Assembly (NCBI RefSeq): GCF_014204715.1
Contig: NZ_JACHLY010000001.1
Span: 1,178,001-1,242,000, forward strand
Direction of reading: 5' to 3'
DNA: 64,000 bases
Origin: Streptomonospora salina
GTDB taxonomy: Bacteria > Actinomycetota > Actinomycetes > Streptosporangiales > Streptosporangiaceae
Positions 46,779-62,220 of the stretch are shown in pieces (the stretch's first letter is position 1; every line of letters begins with the position of its first letter). A program made the translations under genes and the position numbers. The notes beneath the pieces were generated by a model. That model searched no databases and was not told the origin of the DNA. It worked only from the letters and a program-made list of their open reading frames with translations.

Positions 46779-47978
46779 TCAGCCGGCCGCGGCGGCCTTG
46801 CCGGAGGTGCGCACCAGGTCGCTGAAGAGCTCTTCCCACATCATGTGGACGTTCTCGGGAGCGTAGCCCTGCGAGGTCGTGAGCGCCTCGGCGCCCATGC
46901 TGTCGCGCAGCTCCCGGTCGTCCATCATCGTCGAGATGGCGTCGGCCAGCGCGTCGGTGTCCTTGGGCGGAACCAGGATCCCGTCCTTGCCGTCGGTGAT
47001 GACATCGGCCGGCCCGGTAGGGCAGTCGAAGGTCACGATCGGCAGGGCGTGGGTCATCGCCTCGATGACGACCATCGGCAGGCCTTCGAACCGGGAGCTG
47101 AGGATGTAGAAGGCCGACTTGGTGAGCTCGTCTTCCATGCGGTCGGTGTGGCCCATCAGGAAGACGTGGTTGTAGAGGTGGTGCTTGTCGATGAGCGCCC
47201 GCAGCTCGTTCTTCTTCTTGCCCGTCCCGTAGATCCGCAGCTGCCAGTCGGGGTGGCGCTCGGCGACCTTCTTGTAGGCCGGGATGAGCATGTCGAAGCC
47301 CTTCTGGGGGGCCAGCCGTCCCGCGGCGAGGGCGATCTTGTTGGTGTGGTCGGAGTGCTCCTGCTCCGTCGAGTGCACCGCGTTGGGGATCCGCACCAGG
47401 CGGGTGCCGGGCAGCAGCTTCTTGTAGTCGTCCAGGTCGCGGCTGGTGAGCACGGCGACCGCGTCGAAGCTCGGGTAGTACCGGGCGATCGCCTTCTGCA
47501 CGTCCGGGCGGTGGGTGCCCAGGTTCATGTGCTCCTGGGCGACGCGGATCAGCCGCGGGGAGGCGTAGCGCGCGGCGAGGATGTTCAGCGCGGGGCGGGT
47601 GGTCACCAGGATGCCGTCGCCGACGCTCTTGAGATAGCGGACGACCTCGCGCTCGACGTGGCGGTTGAACGCCTCGTAGCCGAACTCCCCCTCCGGGACG
47701 ATCCGGCCGCCCTGCTTGCGCAGGCGTTCGCGGCGGGCGGCGCGGTAGCGCCCCACCGGTCCGGGCGCGGGCTCGTCGCCCTTGGGCGCGCGCACGTCGA
47801 CGACGGTGGTCAGCCGCACCCGCTCGTCGAGGTCGAAGTTGGGCTCGTCCTTGTGCCGGACGGTGCTGACGATCTCGACGTCGTAGCCCAGCCCCGCCAT
47901 GGTGGCGGCCTGGGTGAACACGGTGCGGATGGTGCCGCCTGTGCCGTAGGCGTTCAGCAGCAGGTAGCGGATCCTCAT
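46779..47978 (-). CDS. Glycosyltransferase family 4
   Basis: A 399-residue GT-B glycosyltransferase. N-terminal domain begins MRIRYLLLNAYGTGGTIRTVFTQAATMAGLGYDVEIVS; C-terminal nucleotide-sugar domain shows KIALAAGRLAPQKGFDMLIPAYKKV, RIYGTGKKK and the EGLPMVVIEAMTHALPIVTFDCPTGPADVI donor loop. ATG 47978 overlaps the upstream stop (ATGA). Third gene of an operon with a sulfotransferase, so a sulfated surface glycan or a glycosylated metabolite is a reasonable product. TarM/teichoic-acid-type transferases look similar. Confidence 0.92.
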   Translation of the reverse strand: MRIRYLLLNAYGTGGTIRTVFTQAATMAGLGYDVEIVSTVRHKDEPNFDLDERVRLTTVVDVRAPKGDEPAPGPVGRYRAARRERLRKQGGRIVPEGEFGYEAFNRHVEREVVRYLKSVGDGILVTTRPALNILAARYASPRLIRVAQEHMNLGTHRPDVQKAIARYYPSFDAVAVLTSRDLDDYKKLLPGTRLVRIPNAVHSTEQEHSDHTNKIALAAGRLAPQKGFDMLIPAYKKVAERHPDWQLRIYGTGKKKNELRALIDKHHLYNHVFLMGHTDRMEDELTKSAFYILSSRFEGLPMVVIEAMTHALPIVTFDCPTGPADVITDGKDGILVPPKDTDALADAISTMMDDRELRDSMGAEALTTSQGYAPENVHMMWEELFSDLVRTSGKAAAAG

Positions 47979-48468
47979 GGCGATTCCTTGCCGGATGAGC
48001 CGGACGTGCCGGGCGTGCAGTCGATCGAAAGGTCTTCGCGGGCGGTGTAGACGGGCCGCACGCGCATCCGCACGCCGTCGTCCTCGACTTCCTGGGCGGG
48101 GAAGACCATGACCTTCTTCTTGTCGCGGATGTCGTCCAGCCGGCGCCCCAGCCGCATCCGGCCTTCGGCGTCCGAGTCCGGCCGGTCCTCGGGGACGGCG
48201 TAGAGGTCCCACTTCATCCCGTCGCCGGAAGGCGAGTGCCCGGGATCGACGGGGACGAAGTCCGCCAGCGGGACCGAGACTTCGAAGCGGCCGCCTTCGA
48301 CCTTGAGTTCGTGGTGGACCCGGATGTCGGTACCGCGCACCGCGGACAGCAGGTACCAGCGGCCGGATTCGGGGTCGGCGAGACCGTGGAAGTCGCCGAC
48401 GATGCGGATGCGGCCGTCGCGCGGCCAGACCTCGCCGACCTCCGCGCAGGGCTCGGGGGTGGGGGCGT

Positions 48469-48472
<4 letters not shown>
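47975..48472 (-). CDS. Unknown beta-rich protein between sulfotransferase and glycosyltransferase
   Basis: A 165-residue cytoplasmic protein. GTG 48472 overlaps the sulfotransferase stop (GTGA) and its own stop overlaps the glycosyltransferase start, so all three are translationally coupled. Segments such as GRIRIVGDFHGLADPESGRWYLLSAVRG, DIRVHHELKVEGGRFEVSVPLADF and GMKWDLYAVPED suggest an Ig-like or transthyretin-like beta sandwich. This resembles the small domain found in glycan-polymerising glycosyltransferase operons. No enzyme motif is visible. Confidence 0.75.
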
Positions 48473-49446
<974 letters not shown>

Positions 49447-50014
49447 GGAACTTATGGCTCTTTTCGACTGGAAACAAAGGGAACGGACTCTGTCGCTCGG
49501 CGCCGCACCCGGTCGGCCGCCGACGTCGTATCGGCCGGCCGGGCGGGTCCCGGCGAAGCGGTGCGGCACGGACGCGCGGACGTACCGCACGTGCGGAGGG
49601 CCCGAAGCCGCACCCGGGAGCGCCGGAAGCCGGAAGCGAAACAGCGGAGGCCGCGCACCGGCCGCCCGCCTCGGCCGCGGTGGTCGCCGACCGGATCCCG
49701 CCGGGCCGCGGAGCCGACGATGCGGACACTGCCACGATAACCGCCCCCGAGCGGCCGATCGAGCATCTCGGGTCGCCGACACCCCGGAGGGTCGGACCGC
49801 AGCCCCCTAAAGGGTGGGGCGTGGCATGTCAAGGCCGCATAAAGCCACAGGCATGCACGCGGCCGCACGTCGGTGCACACCCTGCGCCTTCGCTGCACAT
49901 CAGGCCGGATCCGGCCAGGACGCCGGCCGGAGGTGCGGGGTCCGGCCGCCGCGACCGCTCGGCCGCCGCGCAGGTGGTCCCGCCGCGCACGGAACCCGCG
50001 GCTCGGCGCCTAGC
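49447..50014. other. Divergent intergenic region, sulfotransferase operon / MpaB gene
   Basis: About 570 bp. No supported gene or clear repeat. Promoters for both neighbours must lie here. The MpaB start at 50015 has no ribosome site within 20 bp, so a leaderless start is possible. Confidence 0.4.
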
Positions 50015-50854
50015 ATGGGCGCTGTGGGAGGACAGCACGCGCGCGCAAGCGAGGACCCGGCCGCCGGCGTCTACCGCGAGGCCGCGGCTCTGGGGGCGGC
50101 CGCCTACGCCATCCTGCTGCAGATCGCCGAACCGGGCGTGGGGCGGGGCGTACGCGACCACAGCGACTTCGCGCAGCGCCCGGTCGACCGGCTGCGCGGC
50201 ACTCTGGTGTTCGTCTACGCGCTGATGTTCGGCACCGGTGCGGAGGCGGAGCGGGTCGCGGGCACCGTGCGCAGAGTCCACCGGCACGTCGTCGGCCCCG
50301 ACTACAGCGCGCAGGACCCCGAGCTGCAGGTATGGGTGGCGGCGACGCTCTACGCCTGCAACATGCACGTCCACGAACTGGTCTTCGGCCCGATGGCGCC
50401 CGCGGACAAGGACGCGGTCTACACGGCGTCGTCGGTGTTCGCCACCTCGCTGGGCTGCCCGCGCGAGCGCTGGCCCGCCACCCGCGCCGACTTCGAGCGC
50501 TACTGGACCGAAGCGGTCGCCTCCATCAGGGTCGACGACACCGCGCGCGCCGTCGCCGGCGACCTGTTCCACCCCGCCAACCCCGCCGTGCGGGCACTGG
50601 TGCGGGTGCAGCGCTTCCTGGCCTCGGGGCTGCTGCCCGCCCACGTCCGCGACGGGTTCGGCCTGGAGTGGGGCCCGCGGCACCAGCGCCGGTTCGACCG
50701 GCTGGTCACCGTGGTCCGGGCCGTCTACCCGCGCCTGCCGACGGCCGTGCGGACGCTGCCGCGCGACTTCTATCTGCGCGACATGCGCCGCCGGTTCGCC
50801 CGAGCCGACGCGGGCCGGCGCAGCGGCCCGCCCCCGCCCGCCTCCGGAACCTAG
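50015..50854 (+). CDS. MpaB/DUF2236-family oxygenase, copy A
   Basis: A 279-residue protein of the MpaB/latex-clearing (Lcp) superfamily (DUF2236), heme-dependent oxygenases. Visible signature: GVGRGVRDHSDFAQRPVDRLRGTLVFVYALMFG and VRRVHRHVVGPDYSAQDPELQVWVAATLYACNMHVHELVFG, with the His residues expected for heme coordination. C-terminal basic segment follows. The ATG at 50015 is the first good start after the upstream noncoding stretch. Converges with a second family member, with a terminator between them. Confidence 0.87.
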   Translation: MGAVGGQHARASEDPAAGVYREAAALGAAAYAILLQIAEPGVGRGVRDHSDFAQRPVDRLRGTLVFVYALMFGTGAEAERVAGTVRRVHRHVVGPDYSAQDPELQVWVAATLYACNMHVHELVFGPMAPADKDAVYTASSVFATSLGCPRERWPATRADFERYWTEAVASIRVDDTARAVAGDLFHPANPAVRALVRVQRFLASGLLPAHVRDGFGLEWGPRHQRRFDRLVTVVRAVYPRLPTAVRTLPRDFYLRDMRRRFARADAGRRSGPPPPASGT

Positions 50855-50931: not shown

Positions 50932-51852
50932 TCAGTCTGCGCGGGTGGGTTTGCGCAGCCACTTCTCGTCGATGCCGACGGGCTCCGGGGCTCCGACGCC
51001 GGCCAGGTCGCAGCCGTGCGGGAAGCCCGGGTAGGTCCGGTTGCCGGGGTCGGCGGCGAGCCTGGAGGTGCGGCGCGGCGGCAGCTGCGACACGACGCCG
51101 GCCCGCATGCGCAGCGCCGTCCGCACGACGGGGGGCAGCCACCGCGGCGGGTGGGAGAAGCCGAACGCCTCCAGCATGGGGTCGTCCAGCAGCGCCCGCA
51201 CGCCCGCGTCGGCGGCCGGGCGCAGCGGGGCCGGGAACCAGCTGCGGAAGACGTCGAGCGTCGCCTGGCCGACGCGGGCGTTGGTGTCGGCGTAGCGGAA
51301 GTGCTCGCGCTCGTAGGCGTTCTTGAATTCGCGGAAGGCGTCGAGGTCGGCGGGGATGTCGCGGATGTTCATCCGGGTGCCCACCTCCCGGTAGTAGAGG
51401 TAGCCGGCCCGGAGCTCGGCCTCGGTCAGGTCGCGCCAGCCGTACCGGGCGATCCAGTCGATGGGCTCGAAGACGAAGGTCGACAGCACGTAGAGCATGT
51501 CGCCGTTGGAGATGTCGTAGCGGTTGTGCATCCGGTTGATGTTGCGCAGACTCTGGCGGCCCCGCTCGGAGTCGACGCCGTGCTCGGTCATCTCGTTCAT
51601 CAGGATCGAGGTGTCGTCGTAGCGCTTCTGGCCGCAGCGGGAGAACTCGCCGGTGGCGTCCAGCAGGGCCGAGATGGAGGGGACGCAGTAGGTGCGGTAC
51701 AGCGCGAGTTCCAGGGCCCGGTTGTAGTCCCAGGGCAGCTCATAGCCCACGGAGATCCGGTAGATCTCGCGGAAGTCGGTCTCGGGGTCGAGCTCGTCGA
51801 TGCGGCGCATCCAGCGGAAGCGGTCGCGGCGGAGTGCCGAGGGCAGGGGCAT
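50932..51852 (-). CDS. MpaB/DUF2236-like oxygenase, copy B
   Basis: A 306-residue protein of the oxygenase MpaB family, more divergent than copy A. ATG 51852 with GAAGGA 6 nt upstream. Landmarks: RFRWMRRIDELDPETDFREIYRISVGYELPWDYNRALELALYRTYCVPSISALL, GQKRYDDTSILMNEM, and NRMHNRYDISNGDMLYVLSTFVFEPIDWIARYGWR, in which the His is a candidate heme ligand; C-terminal third has SHPPRWLPPVVRTALRMRAGV. Next to a P450 gene across a 586-bp divergent region. Confidence 0.8.
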   Translation of the reverse strand: MPLPSALRRDRFRWMRRIDELDPETDFREIYRISVGYELPWDYNRALELALYRTYCVPSISALLDATGEFSRCGQKRYDDTSILMNEMTEHGVDSERGRQSLRNINRMHNRYDISNGDMLYVLSTFVFEPIDWIARYGWRDLTEAELRAGYLYYREVGTRMNIRDIPADLDAFREFKNAYEREHFRYADTNARVGQATLDVFRSWFPAPLRPAADAGVRALLDDPMLEAFGFSHPPRWLPPVVRTALRMRAGVVSQLPPRRTSRLAADPGNRTYPGFPHGCDLAGVGAPEPVGIDEKWLRKPTRAD

Positions 51853-52438
51853 GGCGTGTTCCTTCACGGGGTGCGGGACGGGTGCGGCCGACTGCGGGCT
51901 GCCGGGCGGTTCGCCGGGACGGTACCCGGCCGAATCGGACGTCGGCTCACCGCCGACTGTAGAACGCGGACTTCCGGTCGATGTAACGGGCACCCGGAAA
52001 TGCGGTATCGGTGCACCCTGGCGTGCGGTCGGAATCGGCGGCACAACGGCGGATCACTCGTCGGCGCACCCGCCCACCGCACATTCCAGGACCCTGACCT
52101 GCTGATTCTCTAACCTGCCGCCCTCGCTTCGCCCTCGCTTCCGGCGACGGGGACCGGGCGGGTTCCCGCGGCCGGGGCGGTCGGCCGAATCGCCCGCAGG
52201 GCGCCGGATCGGGCGTTCCGTGCAATCAGAGCATGACCGAAACGAATTCTACCCGTCCCGGCCCACCCGAGACGGAAACCGATTCCCCCGATTCGGTGAG
52301 TGATAAACGAGTGAACTGCTGTGATGTAGCACTTTGGGCGGGACCTCACATTCTCCGCTCTTACGTCTGGATCATGGCGAATCACATCCCTACCCTGGGA
52401 CGAGCCGACCGCCGCCCCCTCATCAGTGAGGCGCATCT
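51853..52438. promoter_or_regulatory. Divergent region, MpaB copy B / P450
   Basis: About 590 bp with a clear GC drop at 52230-52400. It contains an ATG-initiated open frame of 69 codons (52233-52442) whose stop overlaps the P450 start codon as ATGA. No domain is recognised and its start has no good ribosome site; it is treated here as a possible leader peptide, not as a gene. Confidence 0.4.
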
Positions 52439-53683
52439 ATGACCACAGTTCCGGACACTCCGGGCATTCCTGACATCGTCTCTGCGGAGTTCAACGCCGA
52501 TCCGTATTCCGCCTACCGGATCATGCGCGACGAGGCCCCCCTGATCTGGCACGAGCCGATGCAGAGTTACATCGTTTCGCGCTATGAGGACGTCCAGCGG
52601 GCGTTCAAGGACGGAGTGTTCACCACCGCCAACTACGACTGGCAACTGGAACCGGTGCACGGCCGCACGATCCTCCAGCTCAGCGGCCGCGAGCACGCGA
52701 CACGGCGGGCCCTGGTGGCACCGGCCTTCCGCGGCGGCGAGCTGCGCGACAAGTTCCGCCCCGTCATCGAGCGCAACGCCCGCGAGCTGATCGACACCTT
52801 CCGCGAGGACGGCTCGGTCGACCTGGTGTCGCAGTTCGCCACGCACTTCCCGATCAACGTCATCGTCGACATGCTGGGTCTGGACAAATCCGACCACGAC
52901 CGGTTCCACAAGTGGTACACCAGCATCATCGCCTTCCTGGGCAACCTCACCCAGGACCCCGACGTCGCGGCGGACGGCTTGCGCACCCGCGAAGAGTTCG
53001 CCGCGTACATGATCCCGATCATCCGGGAACGCCGCGAGAACCCCGGCGACGACCTGCTGTCGACGCTGTGCCAGGCCGAGATCGACGGCACCTCGATGAG
53101 CGACGACGACATCAAGGCGTTCTGCAGCCTGCTGCTGGCCGCCGGAGGCGAGACCACCGACAAGGCGCTGGCCGCGATGTTCGCCAACCTGCTCAGCCAC
53201 CCCGACCAGCTGGAGGCGGTGCGCCAGGACCGCTCGCTGATCCCCAAGGCCTTCGCCGAGACGCTGCGCCACAGCCCGCCGGTGCACATGATCATGCGCC
53301 AGCCCGCCGAGGACGTGGTCTTCAGCGGCGGCGAGGTCCCCGCGGGCAGTACCGTGACGTGCCTGATCGGTGCGGCCAACCGCGACCCCGAGCACTACGC
53401 CGACCCCGACGCCTTCAACGTCTTCCGCGAGGAGATCGACGCCTCCACCGCCTTCACCGCAGCCGCCGGGCACCTGGCCTTCGCCTTGGGCCGGCACTTC
53501 TGCGTCGGCGCGCTGCTGGCCGAGACGGAGGTGGAGGTCGCGGCGAACATGCTGCTGGACGCGATGCCCGACGCCCGCCTGGCCGACCGCTACTCGGCCC
53601 AAGAGCAGGGCGTTTTCACCCGCGGCCCGGCCGACGTGCCGGTGGAGTTCACGCCGCGGAGCGCGGTCTCGGCCGGCGTCTGA
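52439..53683 (+). CDS. Cytochrome P450 with complete motifs
   Basis: A 414-residue soluble bacterial P450 monooxygenase. I-helix acid-alcohol region LLAAGGETTDKAL, ExxR as ETLR followed by HSPPVHMIMRQ, and heme loop FALGRHFCVGALLAETE with the thiolate Cys. N-terminal INTERVAL PDIVSAEFNADPYSAYRIMRDEAPL is typical. GAGG ribosome site. Start codon overlaps a short upstream frame. Converges with the ExxR-less P450 of the conservon. No ferredoxin gene is adjacent, so electrons come from elsewhere. Confidence 0.93.
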   Translation: MTTVPDTPGIPDIVSAEFNADPYSAYRIMRDEAPLIWHEPMQSYIVSRYEDVQRAFKDGVFTTANYDWQLEPVHGRTILQLSGREHATRRALVAPAFRGGELRDKFRPVIERNARELIDTFREDGSVDLVSQFATHFPINVIVDMLGLDKSDHDRFHKWYTSIIAFLGNLTQDPDVAADGLRTREEFAAYMIPIIRERRENPGDDLLSTLCQAEIDGTSMSDDDIKAFCSLLLAAGGETTDKALAAMFANLLSHPDQLEAVRQDRSLIPKAFAETLRHSPPVHMIMRQPAEDVVFSGGEVPAGSTVTCLIGAANRDPEHYADPDAFNVFREEIDASTAFTAAAGHLAFALGRHFCVGALLAETEVEVAANMLLDAMPDARLADRYSAQEQGVFTRGPADVPVEFTPRSAVSAGV

Positions 53684-53708
53684 CCTCGCGACCGCGCCGG
53701 AACGACTC

Positions 53709-53736
53709 CGGGGGCCGCTGCCCGCAGCGGCCCCCG
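53709..53736. terminator. Bidirectional terminator between two P450 genes
   Basis: Perfect 12-bp stem CGGGGGCCGCTG / CAGCGGCCCCCG, 4-nt loop, followed by AAA. Confidence 0.8.
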
Positions 53737-53770
53737 AAAGTCCGTGGTGCGGCGGTCCCCGCGCGGCCTC

Positions 53771-55063
53771 CTACGGCGTCCGCTCGTCCATCGGGATCGC
53801 CGGGGTGAAGTGCACCGGCAGCGTGTACAGTCCGCGCATCCACACCGACGGGCGCCACTCCAGCTTCTCCTCGGGCACGTCCAGTTCGATGTCGGGCAGC
53901 CGGTCCAACAGCACCTCGACCGCGTTGCGGGCGATGACCTCGGCCAGCTCCGGGGCCGGGAACGGGCACCCGTGCTCGCCGTGCCCGAAGGACATGTGCG
54001 CGCGGTTGGCGCCGGAGTCCAACTGCTCCTCGGGCTGCACCCGCGGGTCGGCGTTGGCCGCCGCCAGGCCCAGCACCAGCAAGTCGCCGCGGTTGATGCG
54101 GCGCCCGCCCAGTTCGCAGGCCTGCGCCGCCCAGCGCCCGATGAAGTTCTGGGTCGGGGTGTCGCGCCACAGCACCTCGTTGAGCGCCTGGACGGCACTG
54201 CTGCGCCCGCCCTGCAGGCTGACCGAGAAGCGGTCGTCGACGAACATGTGCCGCAGCGTGTTGGCGATCCAGTTTCCGGTGGGCGCCTGGGCGGCCGACA
54301 TCACGACCAGCAGGTCGATGACGATCTCGTCGTCGGTGAGCCCGGCGGAGTGCTCGATCAGCCGCGTGGGCACGTCCTGGCCGGGGCGGGCGTGGGAGTC
54401 GGCGACCAGCCGCTGCATGCGCTCCTGCACCCGCCCGTGCGCCTCGGCGGCGTTGCCCGTGACGTCCAGCGAGTCGAGGATATCGTTCACCAGGCCGGGG
54501 ACGTCGGCCAGCGGCAGCCCGAACAGCTCGGCGACGACGCGCGCGGGGATCTGGTGGGCGTATTGGGCCACCAGCTCGGCCTGGCCGTCGCCGCTGAACC
54601 CGTCGATCAGCTCGTCGGCCACCCGCTGGCAGATCAGCGCGAGCTCGGTGCGGTCGACCTCGTCCAGCGCGTCGCCGAGCGCGCCCGCGCGGCGCTGGTG
54701 CTCGTTGGCCTCGGCGAACATCACCGAGGGGGTCCAGCCGACGTAGGGCATCAGCGGCCAGTCGTCGGGGATGTGGTCCCACATGTTCCAGCGGCGGCAG
54801 TCGCGCGCGAACCACTGCGGGTTGCTGGTGACGTAGTGGACCTCGCGGTAGCCCATCACGAACCACGCCGGAATCTCGTGGTCGAGCAGGATCGGGGCGA
54901 CAGGGCCGTAGCGCCACCGCATGTCGTGGTAAAGGGTGGCGGGGTCCACGGCGATGTCGGGACCGAAGAACCGCACGGCCTGGTCGTGATCGGGGTATCC
55001 GGTCAAGGCGGGCGCGGGTGCCGGCTGCCGAGCGGGCTCGGACGAGGCGGGGTCGTTGGTCAC
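53771..55063 (-). CDS. cvnE: Conservon-linked CYP157-like P450 lacking ExxR
   Basis: A 430-residue P450 at the end of the conservon. Heme ligand Cys366 in FGHGEHGCPFPAPE is intact. The K-helix ExxR, invariant in almost all P450s, reads NEVLW (Glu296, Trp299): the Arg is replaced by Trp, exactly the type of change known for CYP157 enzymes of streptomycete conservons. The I-helix lacks the usual acid-Thr pair (VVMSAAQAPTGNW). GTG 55063 overlaps the cvnD stop (GTGA), so it is translated with the GTPase. Known streptomycete conservons also carry a P450 at this place. Substrate and even monooxygenase activity are open. Confidence 0.9.
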   Translation of the reverse strand: MTNDPASSEPARQPAPAPALTGYPDHDQAVRFFGPDIAVDPATLYHDMRWRYGPVAPILLDHEIPAWFVMGYREVHYVTSNPQWFARDCRRWNMWDHIPDDWPLMPYVGWTPSVMFAEANEHQRRAGALGDALDEVDRTELALICQRVADELIDGFSGDGQAELVAQYAHQIPARVVAELFGLPLADVPGLVNDILDSLDVTGNAAEAHGRVQERMQRLVADSHARPGQDVPTRLIEHSAGLTDDEIVIDLLVVMSAAQAPTGNWIANTLRHMFVDDRFSVSLQGGRSSAVQALNEVLWRDTPTQNFIGRWAAQACELGGRRINRGDLLVLGLAAANADPRVQPEEQLDSGANRAHMSFGHGEHGCPFPAPELAEVIARNAVEVLLDRLPDIELDVPEEKLEWRPSVWMRGLYTLPVHFTPAIPMDERTP

Positions 55064-55695
55064 GGCGTGCCCTCCCTGGCGGGCGACGGTGCGTACACGG
55101 TGTTGAGGTGGCGGACCAGGCTGATCAGCACGGCCTTGCAGTCCTCCCTGCTGCGGGCGTCGCACTCCACGAGCGGAACCTCGGCGGACAGGTCGAGCGC
55201 CTCGCGCAGCGCCTCCAGGGCGGGTCCCGGCTCGAAGCGGTTGATCGCCACGACGAACGGCGTCCCGTGGGCCTCCAGGCGGTCGATCGCATACCAGGAC
55301 TCCTCCACGCGCCGGGGGTCCACGAGCACCACGGCGCCCAGGCTTCCGGCGAACAGCTGGTCCCACAGGAACCAGAACCGCTCCTGCCCGGGCGCGCCGA
55401 ACAGGTAGAGGATCTTGTCATCGGTGATGGTGATGCGGCCGAAGTCGAAAGCCGCCGTGGTGGTGGTCTTGCTGCGCACGCGGGACGGGTCGTCGACGCC
55501 TACGCTCGCTTCGGTCATGACCTCTTCGGTGCTCAGCGGCCGGATCTCGCTGACCGCTCCCACCATGGTCGTCTTGCCTACGCCGAATCCGCCGACCACG
55601 ACGATCTTGAGGGCGTCCTGGGCGTCGGCCGACAGCGGGGCGGGTTCCTGGTAGCCGGAGGGCGGACGGGCGGTTTCAGAGGCGTTGGAGTGCAT
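55060..55695 (-). CDS. cvnD: Conservon GTPase CvnD
   Basis: A 211-residue small GTPase-like protein of the MglA/Rab-like type used in conservon signalling. P loop GGFGVGKTTMVGAVSE (about 35-50), switch region with Thr, G3 GAPGQERFWFLWDQLF, G4 INRFE in place of NKxD, which lowers certainty about nucleotide preference. Overlaps cvnC by 20 nt and cvnE by 4 nt. In S. coelicolor conservons this protein binds GTP/GDP and the membrane complex of CvnA-B-C. Confidence 0.93.
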   Translation of the reverse strand: MHSNASETARPPSGYQEPAPLSADAQDALKIVVVGGFGVGKTTMVGAVSEIRPLSTEEVMTEASVGVDDPSRVRSKTTTTAAFDFGRITITDDKILYLFGAPGQERFWFLWDQLFAGSLGAVVLVDPRRVEESWYAIDRLEAHGTPFVVAINRFEPGPALEALREALDLSAEVPLVECDARSREDCKAVLISLVRHLNTVYAPSPAREGTP

Positions 55696-56041
55696 CGAGC
55701 ACCTGCTTCAGGGTCTCGGGGGCGGGGGTGTGCGCCTGCGCGTCCGAGGAAGCCGACGTCGGGTGGCGGACGGTGATCCGCCCCATGTCCAGCAGGTCGC
55801 GCAGCAGGATGTTGACGACGCTCACCGGCATTCCGAGGGCGGCCGAGATCTCCACGACCGCGGTCGGCCGTTCGCACATCCGCAGGATCCGCATGTGCTC
55901 GGACTGCATGCCCGCCTTGGGGTCGCACTCGCTGACGATGAGCGTCACGCTGTCGAAGACGCCCTCGTCCGCGCGGCTGCGGCCCCCGGTGACGGTGTAG
56001 AGGCGATCGGGATCCTCGTGGTCGATCGGTCGGGGGTTCAT
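55676..56041 (-). CDS. cvnC: Conservon DUF742 protein CvnC
   Basis: A 121-residue winged-helix-like DUF742 protein: DRLYTVTGGRSR, CDPKAGMQSEHMRILRMCERPTAVVEISAALGMPVSVVNILLRDLLDMG. Starts with ATGA overlap at the cvnB stop. Part of the cytoplasmic complex with the roadblock and GTPase proteins. Confidence 0.93.
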   Translation of the reverse strand: MNPRPIDHEDPDRLYTVTGGRSRADEGVFDSVTLIVSECDPKAGMQSEHMRILRMCERPTAVVEISAALGMPVSVVNILLRDLLDMGRITVRHPTSASSDAQAHTPAPETLKQVLDALQRL

Positions 56042-56460
56042 GAGGCGGGACCACCGCTGTACTGCGGAGGCCGCGGATCGGCGGTGAGGTAAGAGCCGAT
56101 CTGCTCGACCAGCTCGTTCATGTTGTGGCCGACGACGCCGACGTCGGTGTCCTCCTCGGCCACGACGGCCAGGTGGGCGCCTGCGCCCGCGGGGACGATG
56201 AGCAGGACCCCGCCGGCGAACTCCACCATCGCCTGACCGGAGGTGATGCTGCCGTCGCCGAAGTCGGCGGAGGCGCTCAGCGACAGGCTCTGGATCCCGG
56301 CGGCGACGGCGGAGAGCTGGTCGGCGCGGTCGTCGTCGAGCTGGGAGGTGAAGACCATCTTCAGCCCGTCTCTGGACAGCACGAGAGCGTGCCGGGCGCC
56401 CGGTGTCTTCGTGAGCAGGTTCTCGAGCAGCCAGTCGAGGCCGCGGTCTGCTGTGCTCAT
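56038..56460 (-). CDS. cvnB: Conservon roadblock/LC7 protein CvnB
   Basis: A 140-residue roadblock/LC7-domain protein, the presumed GTPase-activating or adaptor subunit. LDWLLENLLTKTPGARHALVLSRDGLKMVFTSQLDDDRADQLSAVAAG and the hydrophobic strand AMVEFAGGVLLIVPAGAGAHLAVVAEED are typical. ATG 56460 has AAGGAG 14 nt upstream; a GTG five codons earlier is too close to that site. Confidence 0.93.
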   Translation of the reverse strand: MSTADRGLDWLLENLLTKTPGARHALVLSRDGLKMVFTSQLDDDRADQLSAVAAGIQSLSLSASADFGDGSITSGQAMVEFAGGVLLIVPAGAGAHLAVVAEEDTDVGVVGHNMNELVEQIGSYLTADPRPPQYSGGPAS

Positions 56461-56586
56461 GGGGATCTGTGCCACTCCTTGTTCAAGTCGAACGGGCGCT
56501 GCGCCGCCCGAGGGAAACGCTCCGCGGCCGCGGGCTCCGCACGGGCGCCGTCCCGGCGCCGTCGGGACCGCGATCGAGGCGGCCGA

Positions 56587-58086
56587 TCACGGGGTGGTGT
56601 CGTCCGGGTCGGTGTCGCGCCCGCGGGTGCCGGACCGGCGGAAGGCGGCGAAGCGGGTGCCGGGGTCGCGGCGCTCGCGCGTGGGCTCGGTGCGCTGCTG
56701 GTGCTGCTGGCGTTCGGCCTCGGCCAGGGTCTGTCCGCGGCGCCGTCGGGGCAGTTCGTAGCCGCCGGTGGGGTCGTCGCCGGTAGCACCGGGCGCGCCG
56801 GTGTCGGTTCCGATGCTGTGGGCTCCGGTGCTCTCGATCGAGGCGCCGTCGCCGGCCCCGGTCGCGACCGCCCGCCCGGCGGCCGTGACCGCCGGGCGGG
56901 CGGTCGCGGGAGCCGGGGGCGGCGGGGGCGCGGATACGTCCTGCTGTGTGCGGGTGATGAGGTGCTGGGGTACCAGCACGACCGCGCCGGTGCCGCCGCG
57001 CGAGGACGGGCGGAAGTTGACGGTCAGTCCGTATTTGGCGCCGACCCGGCCGACGACGGCCAGGCCCATGCGGCTTCCCGGCAGGTTGGTGAGGTCGTGG
57101 GGCTCGGAGACCAGCTGGTTGGCACGGCGGCGTTCACGGGGGCGCATGCCCAGGCCGCTGTCCTCGACCGTGATCATGACGCCGGTGTCCTCCTCCTCGA
57201 CATAGACGTGCACCTCGGTGTTGTGCGCGGAGAAGTTGGCGGCGTTGTCCATCAGTTCGGCCACGGCCTGCATCACGCCTTCTGCGGCGTAACCGACGAC
57301 GGCGGCGGTGCTGGTGGTGTGGATCCGCACGCGGCGGAAAGCGTAGATGCGGCCCATGGCGCCGCGCAGGATGCTTTCCATGACGATGGGCTTGGTCCAG
57401 CGGCGTCCGGAGCGGCCACCGCTGAGCAGGGCGAAGCTGTCGGCGAGCCGACCCATCTGGGAGACCTGGTGGTCGAGTTCCAGCAGGTCGCCGAAGATGC
57501 CCTCCTGGTCGCCGTAGCGGTTCTCGTATTCGCGCAGCTGCGCGAGCAGGTTGGTCACCTGCGCCTGGACGCGTGCGGCCGCGCCGGCGCAGGACGCCAT
57601 GGCGGCGGCGCCGCGCCGTTCGGCCTGGCCCAGGGTCTTGCCGAGCTGCACGACCAGGGAGCGCAGGGCTTCCTGGGAGGGCTGGGCGGTTTCGGCGATC
57701 GCGGCGTCGGTGGTCGTGCCCTGGCGGATGCGGCGACGCAGGTCGGAGAAGCCGTCGTGGGCGAACTGGCGCAGTTCGTGCTCCAGGCCGGCGGTCGTGT
57801 GCTCGGCCTGGGCCACGCGCTCCTCGGCGCGCTCCGCGCGTTCGCGGACGACGGCGGCGCGGCCCGCGTGGTAGGTGGCCACGGCGACCGCTCCCGCCAG
57901 CAGGGCGCCCATCACGGAGCCGACCGCGGCCAGCAGTACCTGCGCTTGGGCAGGCACCGAGGCGACGACCCAGTACCAGGCGACGGTCAGGACTACGGCC
58001 GCGCAGAAGAATGCGAGTACGGCTTGCAGAATCGGCGAGCTCGGCGAGCGCTGTGCAGGATTTCTTTCGGATACACGTGCTGACAT
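56587..58086 (-). CDS. cvnA: Conservon sensor histidine-kinase-like protein CvnA
   Basis: A 499-residue membrane sensor. Two membrane helices (about 18-39 and 47-72), a coiled coil with many Ala/Arg/Glu residues, an H-box-like segment LLELDHQVSQMGRLADS, then the GHKL ATPase domain with N box AVAELMDNAANFSAH, G1 VEDSGLGMRPRERRRANQ and G2 RMGLAVVGRVGAKYGL. A long Pro/Ala/Gly-rich tail (from about 385) follows, as usual for CvnA. ATG 58086 with GAGGA upstream. First gene of cvnABCD-cvnE; cvnB follows after 126 bp. Confidence 0.93.
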   Translation of the reverse strand: MSARVSERNPAQRSPSSPILQAVLAFFCAAVVLTVAWYWVVASVPAQAQVLLAAVGSVMGALLAGAVAVATYHAGRAAVVRERAERAEERVAQAEHTTAGLEHELRQFAHDGFSDLRRRIRQGTTTDAAIAETAQPSQEALRSLVVQLGKTLGQAERRGAAAMASCAGAAARVQAQVTNLLAQLREYENRYGDQEGIFGDLLELDHQVSQMGRLADSFALLSGGRSGRRWTKPIVMESILRGAMGRIYAFRRVRIHTTSTAAVVGYAAEGVMQAVAELMDNAANFSAHNTEVHVYVEEEDTGVMITVEDSGLGMRPRERRRANQLVSEPHDLTNLPGSRMGLAVVGRVGAKYGLTVNFRPSSRGGTGAVVLVPQHLITRTQQDVSAPPPPPAPATARPAVTAAGRAVATGAGDGASIESTGAHSIGTDTGAPGATGDDPTGGYELPRRRRGQTLAEAERQQHQQRTEPTRERRDPGTRFAAFRRSGTRGRDTDPDDTTP

Positions 58087-58870
58087 CGATCAGGTCCTCG
58101 TCGGCGGTGGGAAGCGGGACCCGTCCCGCATCGAACCCCTGATCCGTTGCACGGCAGGACGAGCAGGCCCGGGGAAGCCTGTGCGACGGCCAGTGGGGTG
58201 ATCCGGAACTTACCGTAGCCCACTCCGGACACGCAGGGTCAATCGAAGCCAACCCCTCATTCGGCACCGATTCCTACGTTCCAAACCAGACAACCTTCGC
58301 TTTAGCGACATTTGCTGCCGACAATTCGGGCGCGCGGTAGCCGGATAACGCGTGTCGTCGACGAATCGCGCACACGGAAGCCGAGCAAAAAAGGACAAAA
58401 CACTCATATCGCCCTCATTTCCCGATGTCCGCTGCGGGTCGCGGATCCGGCGGAACCAGTATGAGGTATCGCACCCTCCGCGGTTTTGACCGTATCGGCG
58501 GCGGGCTGGCCGTGAGCAGCGGTGCGGATCCGGCGGTGACCGGCGCCTCGCCGCCCCTTCGGCAGCCGCGTGGGACTCGCCGAGCGCACCGAGCCCCGCA
58601 CACGCCCCCGGACCCGCGTCCGTGGAGCATCCGCCTGCGCCGCTCCCCCGCGGCCGTCGGCGCCGCGGCTGCACCTGCATCGCCCTGCGCCGCCGACCGC
58701 CGATGCGCCCGCCCACCGGGGCCGCCGCGGACCGCACAGCCCGCGCCGCCCCGGCTCGGAACCGGCGCTGAGCGCTACGCCGCCTGTGCCGCCGCGGCGC
58801 GGTCGGCCGCCCACCGGCGGAACGTGCGCGCCGCCCTCCGCGCCCGGCGCCGGCCCCCGGAGGCGTCCCG
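58087..58870. other. Upstream region of cvnA and of the pseudogene
   Basis: About 780 bp. The part next to cvnA (58200-58440) is AT-richer and must hold the cvn promoter. The rest is GC-rich with open frames in all directions but none with a ribosome site plus domain. I see no remnant of an ABC ATPase that would match the permease fragment beyond it. Confidence 0.4.
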
Positions 58871-59200
58871 ATGACACTCGCCGTGCAGCACGCCCGCCTG
58901 CTCTTCCTGGAGCCCGCCCGCGCCCCATCGCCTTGGGCTTCGCGCCGCCTTCCCGACCGTGCCGATGCTGTTCTTCGTCGTTGCCGACGGAGCGATCGCC
59001 GGCGACCCGCAAGCGGCCACCCTGGCGACGGCGCAGATCACCGTCGTCGCCGTGATGAACGCCTGCCTGCTGAACTTCGGTGTCGGGGTGGCCGAGGAGC
59101 GCGCCCGCGCCTGGGACCCCTACCTGCGCACGCTGCCGGCAGGTCCGGTGCCGCGCATGGCCGACACCACGGCACTGGCGCTCTGGGCCTACCGCCGCCC
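58871..59200 (+). pseudogene. Frameshifted, truncated ABC-2 type transporter permease
   Basis: Pieces of one ABC-2 permease (DrrB-like) lie in different frames. MTLAVQHARLLFLEPARAP starts at 58871; RPIALGFA follows in a second frame; AFPTVPMLFFVVADGA, then FGVGVAEERARAWDPYLRTLPAGPVPRMADTTALAL, in a third. Two indels near 58918 and 58945 break it, and only about 110 of the usual 240-260 residues remain before sequence unlike the family begins at about 59190. The matching ATPase gene is missing. Confidence 0.72.
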
Positions 59201-59761
59201 GGAGTGGCCCTCGCCACGCTCACCCCTGTTTCCGACGGCCCCGCCGCCGTGTTATAAGCGCCCTTTACACCGCGTTTCATTCGACCGGTACCCATGAAGT
59301 CTCGGTCGAATGAGCGACTCCGGGATCAGTGCTCCAGCTGCGCACCACCGGCGTTTTCACCGGTGATTTCGCTCCGCCTGCGCCCCGGATGCGGCCCCCG
59401 CTGCGGGCGCCGCGGTGCCCGCCCGCATCCCCGGCACCGCGGGCGGAGCGCGCCGCTGCAGGCGACCCGCCCGCCGCCCTGTCCCGAAGAATGGGAAAAT
59501 ACCCGTGTCAACCCTATTACCCAGCGCATTCTCGCTGGTCGATAGCCGAGTATTCGATCTCCGGGGTTGCGCAAAAGCCGGAGAATTCGACAGACTTCGC
59601 CGCGGTGCCGGTGCCCGGGAGAACAGAAGCCGAAAACTCCTGCGCCGATACCGACCGTCGACGAACCGCTCAGAGCGGCGCCGTCCCCACCCCGCGGCGA
59701 CGCCGCCCGAGCTGCGGTTCAGGTCCCCTCCCCCTCCCCCTCCGCACGGAGCCGCAACGCG
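59201..59761. other. Region between permease remnant and P450
   Basis: About 560 bp with no gene. A strong hairpin at 59410-59442 (10-bp stem CCGCGGTGCC / GGCACCGCGG) could end readthrough before the P450 operon; an AT-richer stretch at 59500-59600 is the likely promoter of the P450 pair. Confidence 0.4.
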
Positions 59762-61093
59762 ATGACGCACCCGATCCAGCATCCGACCGACGCAGTCCGG
59801 CTCGACGATCCCGAAGCGTTCGCCGATCCACAGGCACTGTGGGACCGGCTCCTGGAGCGCTACCCCGACGGACTCGCGCCCGTCTTCCTGGCCGAGGGGG
59901 TTCCGGCCTGGCTCATGCTCACGCTCGACGTGCACCAGCAGGTCATGCAGGACCCGGAGACCTTCGCCCGCGACGTCGACCACTGGCGCGACTTCCACAA
60001 CGGCGTCATCCCGGAGAGGTCGCCGATGCGGGCCATCTACACCAAGCGGCGCAACGTGTGGAACGTCGACGGCTCCGACCACAAGTACTACCGCGACATC
60101 GTCGTGCGCGCCCTGTCCAACATCTCCCACAACCAGGTCATGGCCCACGTCGACGAGGTCGTCGACCGGGTCGTCGACACCTTCTGCACCGAAGGCCGCG
60201 CCGACCTGGTCACCCGCTACTCCAGCGTGGTCCCGCTGCTGGTGCTGTGCCGGCTGTACGGGATGGACGCCCAGGAGGGCGTGGCCGTGTGCTCGGCCCA
60301 GCGGCGCGTGTGGGACGGCGCCGACGACGCGCTGCACGTCCACGCCCAGATGCAGCGCCGCATGACCGCCCTGGCCCAGCGCCGCCGCGAAGAGCCCGGC
60401 AACGACCTGGTCTCCGAACTCGTCGCAGCCGGGCTCGACGACGAGGAGATCCGCGACCACCTCACCTTCATCACCGCGGCGGCCCACGAGCCAGCCGCGC
60501 ACACCGTCGCGCACGCGATGTGGCTGCTGCTGGGCCGCAAGAACGAACTGGTGCAGCTGAATTCCGGGCGCACCGTCCGCGAGGCGGTCAACACCAGCCT
60601 GTGGCACGCGCCGCCGATGCACACCCTCATCGGCCGCTTCGCCACCCGCGACACGTCGGTCGGCGGCTACCGGGTGGCCGCCGGCGACTGCCTGGTCATG
60701 GGTTTCGGCCCCGCCCAGCAGCTGCTGCGGCGCGACGAGCGCCTGGACACCGAGACCAACCGCTCCTACATGATCTTCGGCATGGGACCGCACTCCTGCC
60801 CCAGTGCCGGCCGCGACCTGGGTCTGGCCATCGCCGAGAAGGCCGTGCAGCGGATCGACCGCCGCCTGCCCGACATGGTCCTGGTCGACGAGCAGTGGCA
60901 GGGGGTGGCCGCAGGCCGGCTCAGCGGCGTGGAATCCCTGCGCGTCGCCTTCACCCCCACCGATCGCATCTACGAAGGAGCCCCGTGGCAACTGAGCGCA
61001 TCGCAATCGACCCCCGAGACCTCGACAGAGACGCGACCGCACACGCTCTCCATGCGGCTGGGCCAGTGGCTGCGGTGGATCTGGCCGGGGTGA
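59762..61093 (+). CDS. Cytochrome P450 lacking ExxR, CYP157-like
   Basis: A 443-residue P450. Heme loop FGMGPHSCPSAGRD with Cys346. In the K helix the conserved ExxR position reads NTSLW (Thr278, Trp281), so both the Glu and the Arg are lost; the I helix (ITAAAHEPAAHTVAHAM) lacks the usual AGxxT. The fold and N-terminus (ADPQALWDRLLERYPDGLAPVFLAEGVPAWLML) are otherwise complete. Its last 36 codons overlap the next P450 gene in another frame and encode a tail (MRLGQWLRWIWPG) unlike P450 C-termini. ATG 59762. Pairing of a CYP157-like and a normal P450 resembles CYP157/CYP154 pairs of streptomycete conservons. Confidence 0.88.
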   Translation: MTHPIQHPTDAVRLDDPEAFADPQALWDRLLERYPDGLAPVFLAEGVPAWLMLTLDVHQQVMQDPETFARDVDHWRDFHNGVIPERSPMRAIYTKRRNVWNVDGSDHKYYRDIVVRALSNISHNQVMAHVDEVVDRVVDTFCTEGRADLVTRYSSVVPLLVLCRLYGMDAQEGVAVCSAQRRVWDGADDALHVHAQMQRRMTALAQRRREEPGNDLVSELVAAGLDDEEIRDHLTFITAAAHEPAAHTVAHAMWLLLGRKNELVQLNSGRTVREAVNTSLWHAPPMHTLIGRFATRDTSVGGYRVAAGDCLVMGFGPAQQLLRRDERLDTETNRSYMIFGMGPHSCPSAGRDLGLAIAEKAVQRIDRRLPDMVLVDEQWQGVAAGRLSGVESLRVAFTPTDRIYEGAPWQLSASQSTPETSTETRPHTLSMRLGQWLRWIWPG

Positions 61094-62220
61094 ACGCCCT
61101 GGCCGTCACCCACCACGAGGCGCTGCGCACCGTGTTGGCCGACCGCACCGGGACGTTCGTGCGAGGCGGTGCCCAGCAGAACTGGCGGGCGGTGCGCGAA
61201 GGCGAGGTCGACCCCGGCAGCGCCCTGGTGCGCCTGGTCGGCGGCTCCATCGGCAGCCTGCTCACCGCCAACGGCGCCGCGCACGCCCGGCTGCGCAAGC
61301 CTATGCAGACGCACTTCACCCGGCGGCGGGTGGAGGCGCTGCGGCCGCGGGTGGAGAAGCTCGCCGACGACCTGCTTGCGGACATGGCCGCGGACGACAG
61401 CGTGGACGTCAAGGACCGGTTCGCCTGGCCGCTGACGGTCGGCGTGCTGGTGGGCCTGCTGGGCGTCGACGACGAGGACGCCCCCGTCCTCGGCGACATC
61501 GCCCGGCGCGTGTTCGAGCTGAGCGACCCCGGGGTCTACGCCGAAGCCAACGCCTTCCTCAAGGACCTGGTGGTCAAGCGGCGGGCCGACCCGGGCGAGG
61601 ACCTGGTCAGCGCGCTGGCCGCCGCCGACGACGCGGCCGAGGAAGCCGACCGGCTCGGCGACACCCAGATCGCCGCCAACCTCGTCCTGCTGGTCATCGC
61701 GGGCTTCGAGACCACGATGGGCACGCTGGCCAACGGTGTGCAGGCGCTGCTGGCCCACCCCGACCAGCTGAGGCGCGTCACCGGCGGCGACGTCGAGTGG
61801 GCGACGGCGGTCGAGGAGGTCCTGCGCCGCTACACGTCGGTGAGTCTGCTGCCGGCGGTGTTCTCCACCTGCGACACCGAGGTGGCGGGGGTGCCCGTGC
61901 CCGAGGGCGAGATGCTGCTGCTGGCCTACGGCGCCGCGGCGCTGGACCCGGAGCCCTGGGAGGAGCCCGCCGCCTTCGACGTGGGCCGCGACGCGCGCGG
62001 CCACCTGGCGTTCGGCCACGGTCCCCACCTGTGCCTGGGGGCGCCGCTGGCGCGGTTGGAGCTCAACGTGGCCCTGCCGCGGCTGTTCGCGCGCTTCCCC
62101 GACCTGGCCCTGGACACCGGGCGCGGGGCCGAAGAGGCCGCGGTGCCGGTGGAGAGCTGGATGATGCACCACCCCCAGCAGGTGTGGGTGCACCCGAAGG
62201 GCGCACCGGCCGCCGTCTGA
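60985..62220 (+). CDS. Cytochrome P450 with complete motifs, CYP154-like
   Basis: A 411-residue P450 starting GTG 60985 (GAAGGAG upstream) inside the preceding P450 gene, a 109-bp overlap in a different frame. Complete motifs: I helix LLVIAGFETTMGTLANG, ExxR EEVLRRYTS and heme loop LAFGHGPHLCLGAPLARLE. Translational coupling suggests the two P450s are made in equal amounts and may act together. Confidence 0.92.
   Translation: MATERIAIDPRDLDRDATAHALHAAGPVAAVDLAGVNALAVTHHEALRTVLADRTGTFVRGGAQQNWRAVREGEVDPGSALVRLVGGSIGSLLTANGAAHARLRKPMQTHFTRRRVEALRPRVEKLADDLLADMAADDSVDVKDRFAWPLTVGVLVGLLGVDDEDAPVLGDIARRVFELSDPGVYAEANAFLKDLVVKRRADPGEDLVSALAAADDAAEEADRLGDTQIAANLVLLVIAGFETTMGTLANGVQALLAHPDQLRRVTGGDVEWATAVEEVLRRYTSVSLLPAVFSTCDTEVAGVPVPEGEMLLLAYGAAALDPEPWEEPAAFDVGRDARGHLAFGHGPHLCLGAPLARLELNVALPRLFARFPDLALDTGRGAEEAAVPVESWMMHHPQQVWVHPKGAPAAV

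Follow-up and report, generated by a model that had tools for sequence, protein, structure and literature searches.

Organization of the P450 genes around the conservon

The 64,000-nucleotide stretch of the Streptomonospora salina genome analysed here (contig NZ_JACHLY010000001.1, positions 1,178,001 to 1,242,000; the window) contains four cytochrome P450 genes, P1 to P4, close to a conservon, the cluster cvnA-B-C-D, which encodes a histidine-kinase-like protein, a roadblock/LC7 protein, a DUF742 protein and a small GTPase. A first-pass annotation of the sequence had placed all four P450 genes near the conservon, in agreement with their span of 52439–62220, and had singled out two of them, P2 and P3, as lacking the ExxR motif. 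Judged by their motifs and alignment, P2 and P3 are members of one actinobacterial P450 lineage, here called W-type for the Trp that mostly replaces the ExxR arginine. P2 is an ordinary example of its kind, a conservon P450 of the CYP157/CvnE type, and P3 belongs to a different branch, in which the gene most likely forms with P4 an oxidative unit independent of the neighboring conservon.

The gene order across the window is two MpaB/Lcp-type oxygenase genes, P1, P2, cvnD, cvnC, cvnB, cvnA, P3, and P4 (Table 1). P1 and P2 are convergent, tail-to-tail, and the GTG start of P2 lies over the stop codon of cvnD in a 4-nucleotide (nt) overlap (55060–55063). P3–P4 run divergently from cvnA and start 1.7 kb away from it. 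The longest open reading frame (ORF) of P3 opens at 59567, with 59762 as the likely start.

Table 1. Features of the conservon and its P450 genes in the window
Feature	Coordinates	Strand	Basis or remark
P1, ordinary P450 with AGGETT and ETLR	52439..53683	+	PF00067, E 9.6e-38
P2, W-type P450, CvnE-type conservon accessory, without C-terminal tail	53771..55063	-	GTG start
cvnD, small GTPase	55060..55695	-	PF03029, E 4.1e-29
cvnC, DUF742	55676..56041	-	PF05331, E 2.8e-31
cvnB, roadblock/LC7	56038..56475	-	PF03259, E 9.4e-21
cvnA, histidine-kinase-like	56587..58086	-	PF02518, E 6.6e-14
P3, W-type P450 (NTSLW), no conservon of its own	59762..61093	+	motifs, orthologues, paralogues
P3 C-terminal tail, 46 residues, Ser/Thr-rich linker and Trp/Arg-rich end	60953..61090	+	encoded mostly within the P4 overlap
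P3/P4 overlap, 109 nt, different frames	60985..61093	+	
P4, ordinary P450 with AGFETT and EEVLR, CYP154-like	60985..62220	+	PF00067, E 4.8e-26, matched stretch starting 15 nt downstream

Motifs and predicted fold of P2 and P3

The motif losses reported by the first-pass annotation were confirmed for both proteins. The K-helix reads NEVLW in P2 and NTSLW in P3, the I-helix threonine is lost (SAAQAPT and AAAHEPA, respectively), and the heme-ligand cysteine is retained (GEHGC and GPHSC). When P2 and P3 are aligned with 87 ordinary P450 ORFs, E..W (P2) and T..W (P3) stand in the columns of the ExxR motif, and a conventional ExxR hidden elsewhere by a shift, which was looked for, is therefore ruled out in either protein. 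Of the hallmarks of the P450 superfamily, the heme-thiolate cysteine of the FGxGxHxC loop is thus aligned in P2 and P3 and the K-helix ExxR is replaced by EVLW and TSLW, a combination of Arg to Trp with a retained cysteine that is the known trait of CYP157. The two proteins share only 30% identity.

AlphaFold 2 was run on single chains with shallow alignments (five or ten rows). The model of P2 has a mean predicted local distance difference test score (pLDDT) of 67, and of ∼65 over residues 291–300; residues 289–300 are helical and sit just before a strand, as the K-helix should, with NEVLW at 295–299. The top Foldseek match of this model is CYP154C1 (E 4.8e-16), which confirms a P450 fold as predicted. 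P3 matches 7qan by sequence (E 1.2e-28), and by sequence the solved relatives of P4 include 8rtv (302 bits), with CYP154C1 and CYP154A1 among the closest. No named CYP157 chain was found among the matches listed in the structure searches (the best 60 of 213 and of 384).

The W-type lineage

Loci were collected around relatives from the genus, from the family, and from a phylum-wide draw in which four candidates were scored per genome, and a profile comparison separated their 225 P450 ORFs into 138 W-types, of the P2/P3 kind, and 87 ordinary P450s. Several sets of these loci were picked by score and are not unbiased, so that context rates are taken only from a 68-gene family sample and six chosen genomes. 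A single branch divides the W-type from the ordinary P450s in a FastTree phylogeny, in which the branches are long.

The heme cysteine is present in all W-types (138/138) and is followed by Pro in 136. The C-helix His is conserved in 134 of the 138, the GPHxC His in 133, and the C-helix Arg in 100. The position of the ExxR arginine, by comparison, is occupied by Trp in 117, Phe in 7, Arg in 4, Tyr in 3, Val in 3, and other residues in 4, against Arg in 87/87 ordinary P450s. The ExxR glutamate survives in 50 of the 138 W-types, 46 of them among the 68 linked to a conservon and 4 among the 70 that are conservon-free. At the I-helix alcohol position Pro is found in 114 W-types and Thr in 8, and the I-helix acid and Thr occur together in 1/138 W-types compared with 84/87 ordinary P450s; for the Gly of the CxG motif the corresponding counts are 15/138 and 87/87. 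Read from these motifs, the cysteine and its surroundings are conserved in the W-types, and the features of oxygen activation and of the ExxR motif are mostly gone. This pattern argues that W-types still build a heme-thiolate site.

W-types are easily overlooked, as a search of this genome with the Pfam P450 model PF00067 finds none of its seven. P2 matched no Pfam family at E 0.001, and P3 searched alone barely reaches the PF00067 cut-off (22.9 versus 22.8 bits). Matches in plasmid records are annotated variously as cytochrome P450, hypothetical protein, the neighboring ATP/GTP-binding protein, or nothing; the record of a Streptosporangium plasmid lists the W-type gene, next to its P450 partner, as a hypothetical protein. 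A published survey describes the exclusion of P450s without an EXXR or CXG motif, yet many CYP157s are counted in it (PMC7369989). Elsewhere in the collection, two loci have a conservon followed by three W-type P450s, with LF replacing LW, and one ordinary P450.

P2 belongs to the conservon P450s

P2 is found directly behind cvnA-D, on the same strand, and has the EVLW form, which bears out its earlier description as a CYP157-type conservon P450. Two transmembrane (TM) segments of the window CvnA start, in a hydropathy scan, at residues 20 and 47. As these starts are only 27 residues apart, an extracytoplasmic sensor domain would not fit between them, and the CvnA cognate to P2 thus appears to be sensor-less by hydropathy. 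Among the other CvnAs of this genome, four have TM pairs ∼300 residues apart and two have no TM segment, again by hydropathy. P450-type CvnE genes have been described as accompanying sensor-less CvnA proteins, with a proposed role as kinase input or modulator, in a recent report (PMC13343842, mBio 2026), and P2 resembles these accessories in being a P450 next to a sensor-less CvnA. Members of CYP157 with EVLW and with EQSLW are likewise on record in PMC3599690, which cites Rupasinghe 2006.

The arrangement of cvnA-B-C-D, a W-type P450 and a convergent ordinary P450 is also present on a plasmid of Streptomyces sp. KN37, where the W-type is 56% identical. Immediately behind two other conservons of the S. 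salina genome, those whose CvnA has no TM segment by hydropathy, comes a gene for a styrene-monooxygenase-like flavin oxygenase (PF17885), perhaps another redox accessory.

P3 and P4 form a conserved pair

A search of 150 family genomes located P3 orthologues of at least 82% identity in five genomes, counting this one; those in G001, G002, G005, and G023 are full length and 82–93% identical. Four paralogues of P3 (45–47% identity) occur in S. salina itself, each in a tandem pair of a W-type and an ordinary P450, so that the genome holds five such pairs including P3–P4, and the four paralogous pairs (L031–L034) are each followed by a PF04672 methyltransferase gene. The sharing of the motif losses by orthologues, paralogues, and the lineage at large rules out chance or a sequencing artefact as their cause.

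The first-pass annotation had proposed that P3 and P4 are a unit, that they include a partner-type P450, and that they lie under the same GTPase switch as P2. The couple is real and conserved, and fits the idea of partner-type P450s. The shared switch was not borne out. The P3 orthologue stands beside a conservon in only three of the five genomes (this one, G001, and G005), in G002 the distance is ∼18 kb to cvnA and 21 kb to the P2 orthologue, and in G023 it is on a different contig from the conservon; joint GTPase control is therefore not supported. It is weakened further by the four paralogous pairs, which lie hundreds of kb from all seven DUF742 (cvnC) sites of this genome, and by a family sample of 46 genomes, 25 of which carry the 68 W-type genes. 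A conservon lies upstream of 25 of the 68 (the ordinary P450 neighbor is tandem in 10, convergent in 7, and absent in 8), and 43 have none upstream (18 tandem, 1 convergent, and 24 without an ordinary neighbor). The ExxR-less P450s thus make up a large lineage, most of whose sampled members in the family are outside conservons. Conservation of homologues near conservons, which the annotation had offered as a check on its proposal, accordingly holds for P2 and fails for P3.

These distributions bear on the view that the two P450 pairs make up a single oxidative island, which is under the control of the conservon membrane sensor and GTPase or physically belongs to them. The distance from P3–P4 to cvnA is short here and ∼1–3 kb in G001 and G005, and an overlapping W-type/ordinary pair stands directly behind cvnA-D on a Streptomyces plasmid. 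That last pair implies that the conservon and pair arrangements are related and have a common history. The orthologues remote from the conservon in G002 and G023, the conservon-free paralogous pairs and family members, and the low identity of P2 and P3 all oppose a single island, which we consider improbable; it is unlikely that the four P450s are jointly controlled by the GTPase. P3–P4 most likely works as an oxidative unit in its own right rather than as an output arm of the conservon beside it.

Pairing itself was assessed in six genomes, which were hand-chosen, three of them from the same genus, and in which paralogues are not independent. After removal of second pieces of the same gene (6/72 and 1/14 rows), an ordinary P450 lay within 2 kb of 19/24 W-types and of 3/60 other ordinary P450s (Fisher P 1.6e-11). 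Over 57 pairs the sequence distances of W-types and their partners correlate with r 0.80, and over the 33 conservon-free pairs with r 0.93, the best of 2000 permutations of the latter reaching 0.18; 3/60 tandem pairs had been removed as near-copies. Such a correlation is weak when taken alone, because it is expected of linked genes, and the parallel distances are evidence that the pairs stay together, rather than of interaction.

A C-terminal extension in many W-types

The median length from the heme cysteine to the stop codon is 56 residues in ordinary P450s, 66 in conservon-linked W-types, and 102.5 in conservon-free W-types. An extension of at least 30 residues is carried by 64/69 conservon-free and 23/66 conservon-linked W-types; these counts omit 3/138 W-types without a parsable core end, and two W-types with tails of at least 200 residues are treated as read-through and not as extension. 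The extension is mostly rich in Pro, Ser, Thr, Ala, and Gly (60–66% of residues) and closes with a short basic segment in which Trp is often abundant. Trp is found within the last 18 residues of 73/87 extensions, and in the 51 cases with no overlapping P450 partner it makes up 86/918 (9.4%) of the last 18 residues versus 16/2121 (0.8%) of the remainder. The extension is missing from P2 and from the other NEVLW proteins, except for two whose C termini are not normally readable. The extension is not a mark of conservon-free W-types only, a possibility ruled out by its presence in conservon-linked proteins such as those of the EQSLW group. By analogy with the C-terminal helices of MinD or FtsA, the extension could be membrane-targeting.

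W-types of the DYVMW/DHxMW kind at six loci that have neither conservon nor partner share a repeated GARYxAP-like motif in the C-terminal linker. In the S. salina pair L034 (7943–10690 of that locus) the W-type frame passes the usual tail and runs on for 426 residues across the partner gene, and the C terminus of this copy therefore seems altered.

Where the genes of a pair overlap, the W-type tail is largely encoded within the 5′ end of the partner, and in the window the P3 tail may be partly imposed by P4. A comparison of frame openness between overlapped and non-overlapped partners is circular, W-type ORFs being open by definition, and was not used. Another reading would make the P3 motifs a product of decay, in a gene that is being lost and is held open by the overlap. 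GC-rich frames easily stay open, the overlap of 109 nt would help, and the run-on frame of L034 is an example of irregularity within the same genome. A dying gene is nonetheless very hard to reconcile with full-length orthologues at 82–93% identity in four genomes, with four paralogues, and with a cysteine conserved in every W-type, and we regard it as highly improbable.

Proposed role of the W-type P450s

The loss of motifs around a retained cysteine, a partner or sensory role of P2 and P3, and the independence of P3–P4 from the conservon can be joined in one reading, to which we give about an even chance. W-types would not run the usual O2-activating monooxygenase cycle and would serve instead as heme-holding partner or sensory subunits. 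P2 would, following the published idea and by extension to this copy, feed the sensor-less CvnA kinase as a CvnE accessory. P3 would be a heme-keeping, probably non-monooxygenase partner of the neighboring P450, and P4 would be the catalyst, the two perhaps being made together through their overlapping frames. In many W-types a flexible linker with a basic, Trp-rich C terminus would attach the protein to a membrane or to a docking protein.

Several observations weigh against this reading. In the family sample 36/68 W-types are beside an ordinary P450, a lower bound given contig ends and a partner in L034 that the rule missed, and the 24 with neither a conservon nor an ordinary P450 neighbor mean that a partner in cis is not obligatory. 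The amphipathicity of the extensions is moderately above that of shuffled sequences (median percentile 0.80, with 27% above 0.9), and 14/87 extensions have no Trp within the last 18 residues. Among the five orthologues, amino-acid-changing codons in the P3–P4 overlap are more frequent in the P3 than in the P4 frame in 9/10 comparisons, with one tie, and this excess weakens the case for selection on the P3 tail in its own right. The AlphaFold 2 model of P3 (pLDDT 53) was too poor for use, and the P450 membership of P3 therefore rests on its sequence.

The W-types may alternatively be true enzymes of unusual chemistry, such as isomerases, dehydratases, or peroxide-driven enzymes, with P3 and P4 acting in sequence in a small tailoring pathway and not as a complex. 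Some P450s without the I-helix threonine, namely CYP74 and CYP152, are still enzymes. The cysteine and the heme-contacting His are kept in nearly all W-types, and the methyltransferase gene behind the four paralogous pairs gives these the look of a tailoring cassette. Set against this, the joint loss of the arginine, the alcohol and mostly the CxG Gly, together with the C-terminal extensions, exceeds what a changed chemistry needs, and no common neighbor was seen by eye at six loci without partner or conservon, where the gene calls are unannotated. Such an enzymatic role is possible, and we hold it to be less probable than the partner or sensory reading.

A bolder form of the partner reading, put forward tentatively and somewhat doubtful even to us, is that W-type and ordinary P450s form heteromers, co-encoded or in trans, in which a heme-binding W-type without O2 activation would anchor a catalytic P450 at the membrane, or switch it allosterically, through the linker and Trp-rich end. 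The conservon P450s would then be one branch of a partner system that has expanded to five tandem pairs in S. salina. Catalytic and non-catalytic P450s would not be expected to occur in pairs, and P3–P4 allows the purpose of a P450 that lacks both ExxR and the I-helix alcohol to be tested directly. The W-types also bear on how P450 accessories feed bacterial G-protein systems.

Neighboring genes

The PF09995 genes next to P1, resembling MpaB/Lcp rubber oxygenases, are a pair at 49814–50854 (+) and 50932–52044 (-), and the same pair adjoins P1 and the conservon in G001, G005, and G002. The nearest NCBIfam model to P1 itself is TIGR04538, with a score of 383 bits, which is below the cut-off of 500. 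Short ORFs between cvnA and P3 (58871–59297) look by eye like fragments of an ABC-2 permease and may be what is left of a gene; those at 58871–59294 gave no Pfam match. A group-1 glycosyltransferase gene and a sulfotransferase-like gene are located further upstream, at 46782–49530 (-).

Comparison with known systems

CYP157 enzymes without ExxR and CvnE accessories are already known. No account of conservon-free W-type/ordinary pairs or of the extension was found in a literature search outside which most subscription papers lie, and novelty is for that reason unproven; the same search returned no paper on 8RTV, on CYP157 with amphipathic, or on CYP157 with Nocardiopsis. A close likeness is to the CYP157 proteins of Streptomyces conservons (CYP157A with EVLW and CYP157C with EQSLW), in which Arg is likewise replaced by Trp, the cysteine is kept, and the gene follows cvnA-D. 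P2 is of the EVLW form, and EQSLW members are among the collected loci and carry the tail too. P3 differs from CYP157 in also lacking the glutamate, in having no conservon of its own, in overlapping an ordinary P450, and in possessing a C-terminal tail.

CYP154 P450s are ordinary, with ExxR and AGxxT, in agreement with the alignment of CYP154C1 made here. CYP154C1 is the top solved fold for P2, and CYP154C1 and CYP154A1 are among the closest to P4 by sequence; the family thus resembles the ordinary partners and not the W-types. The P450-derived glycosyltransferase activators of TIGR04515 are P450 homologues that act as partner proteins. P2 and P3 have weak hidden Markov model similarity to them (73.0 and 52.9 bits, respectively, below the cut-off of 343), and differ in that the heme cysteine is kept and that no glycosyltransferase gene is adjacent to P2 or P3.

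The CvnE report covers conservon-linked P450s, unlike P3, and its main text contains no occurrence of EXXR, C-terminal, amphipathic, or tail (PMC13343842). A further parallel is the split P450 EutEFG, reported to be inactive and suggested to play a structural part in a tailoring complex; EutEFG differs from P3–P4 in consisting of three gene fragments of one P450 (PMC11574762).

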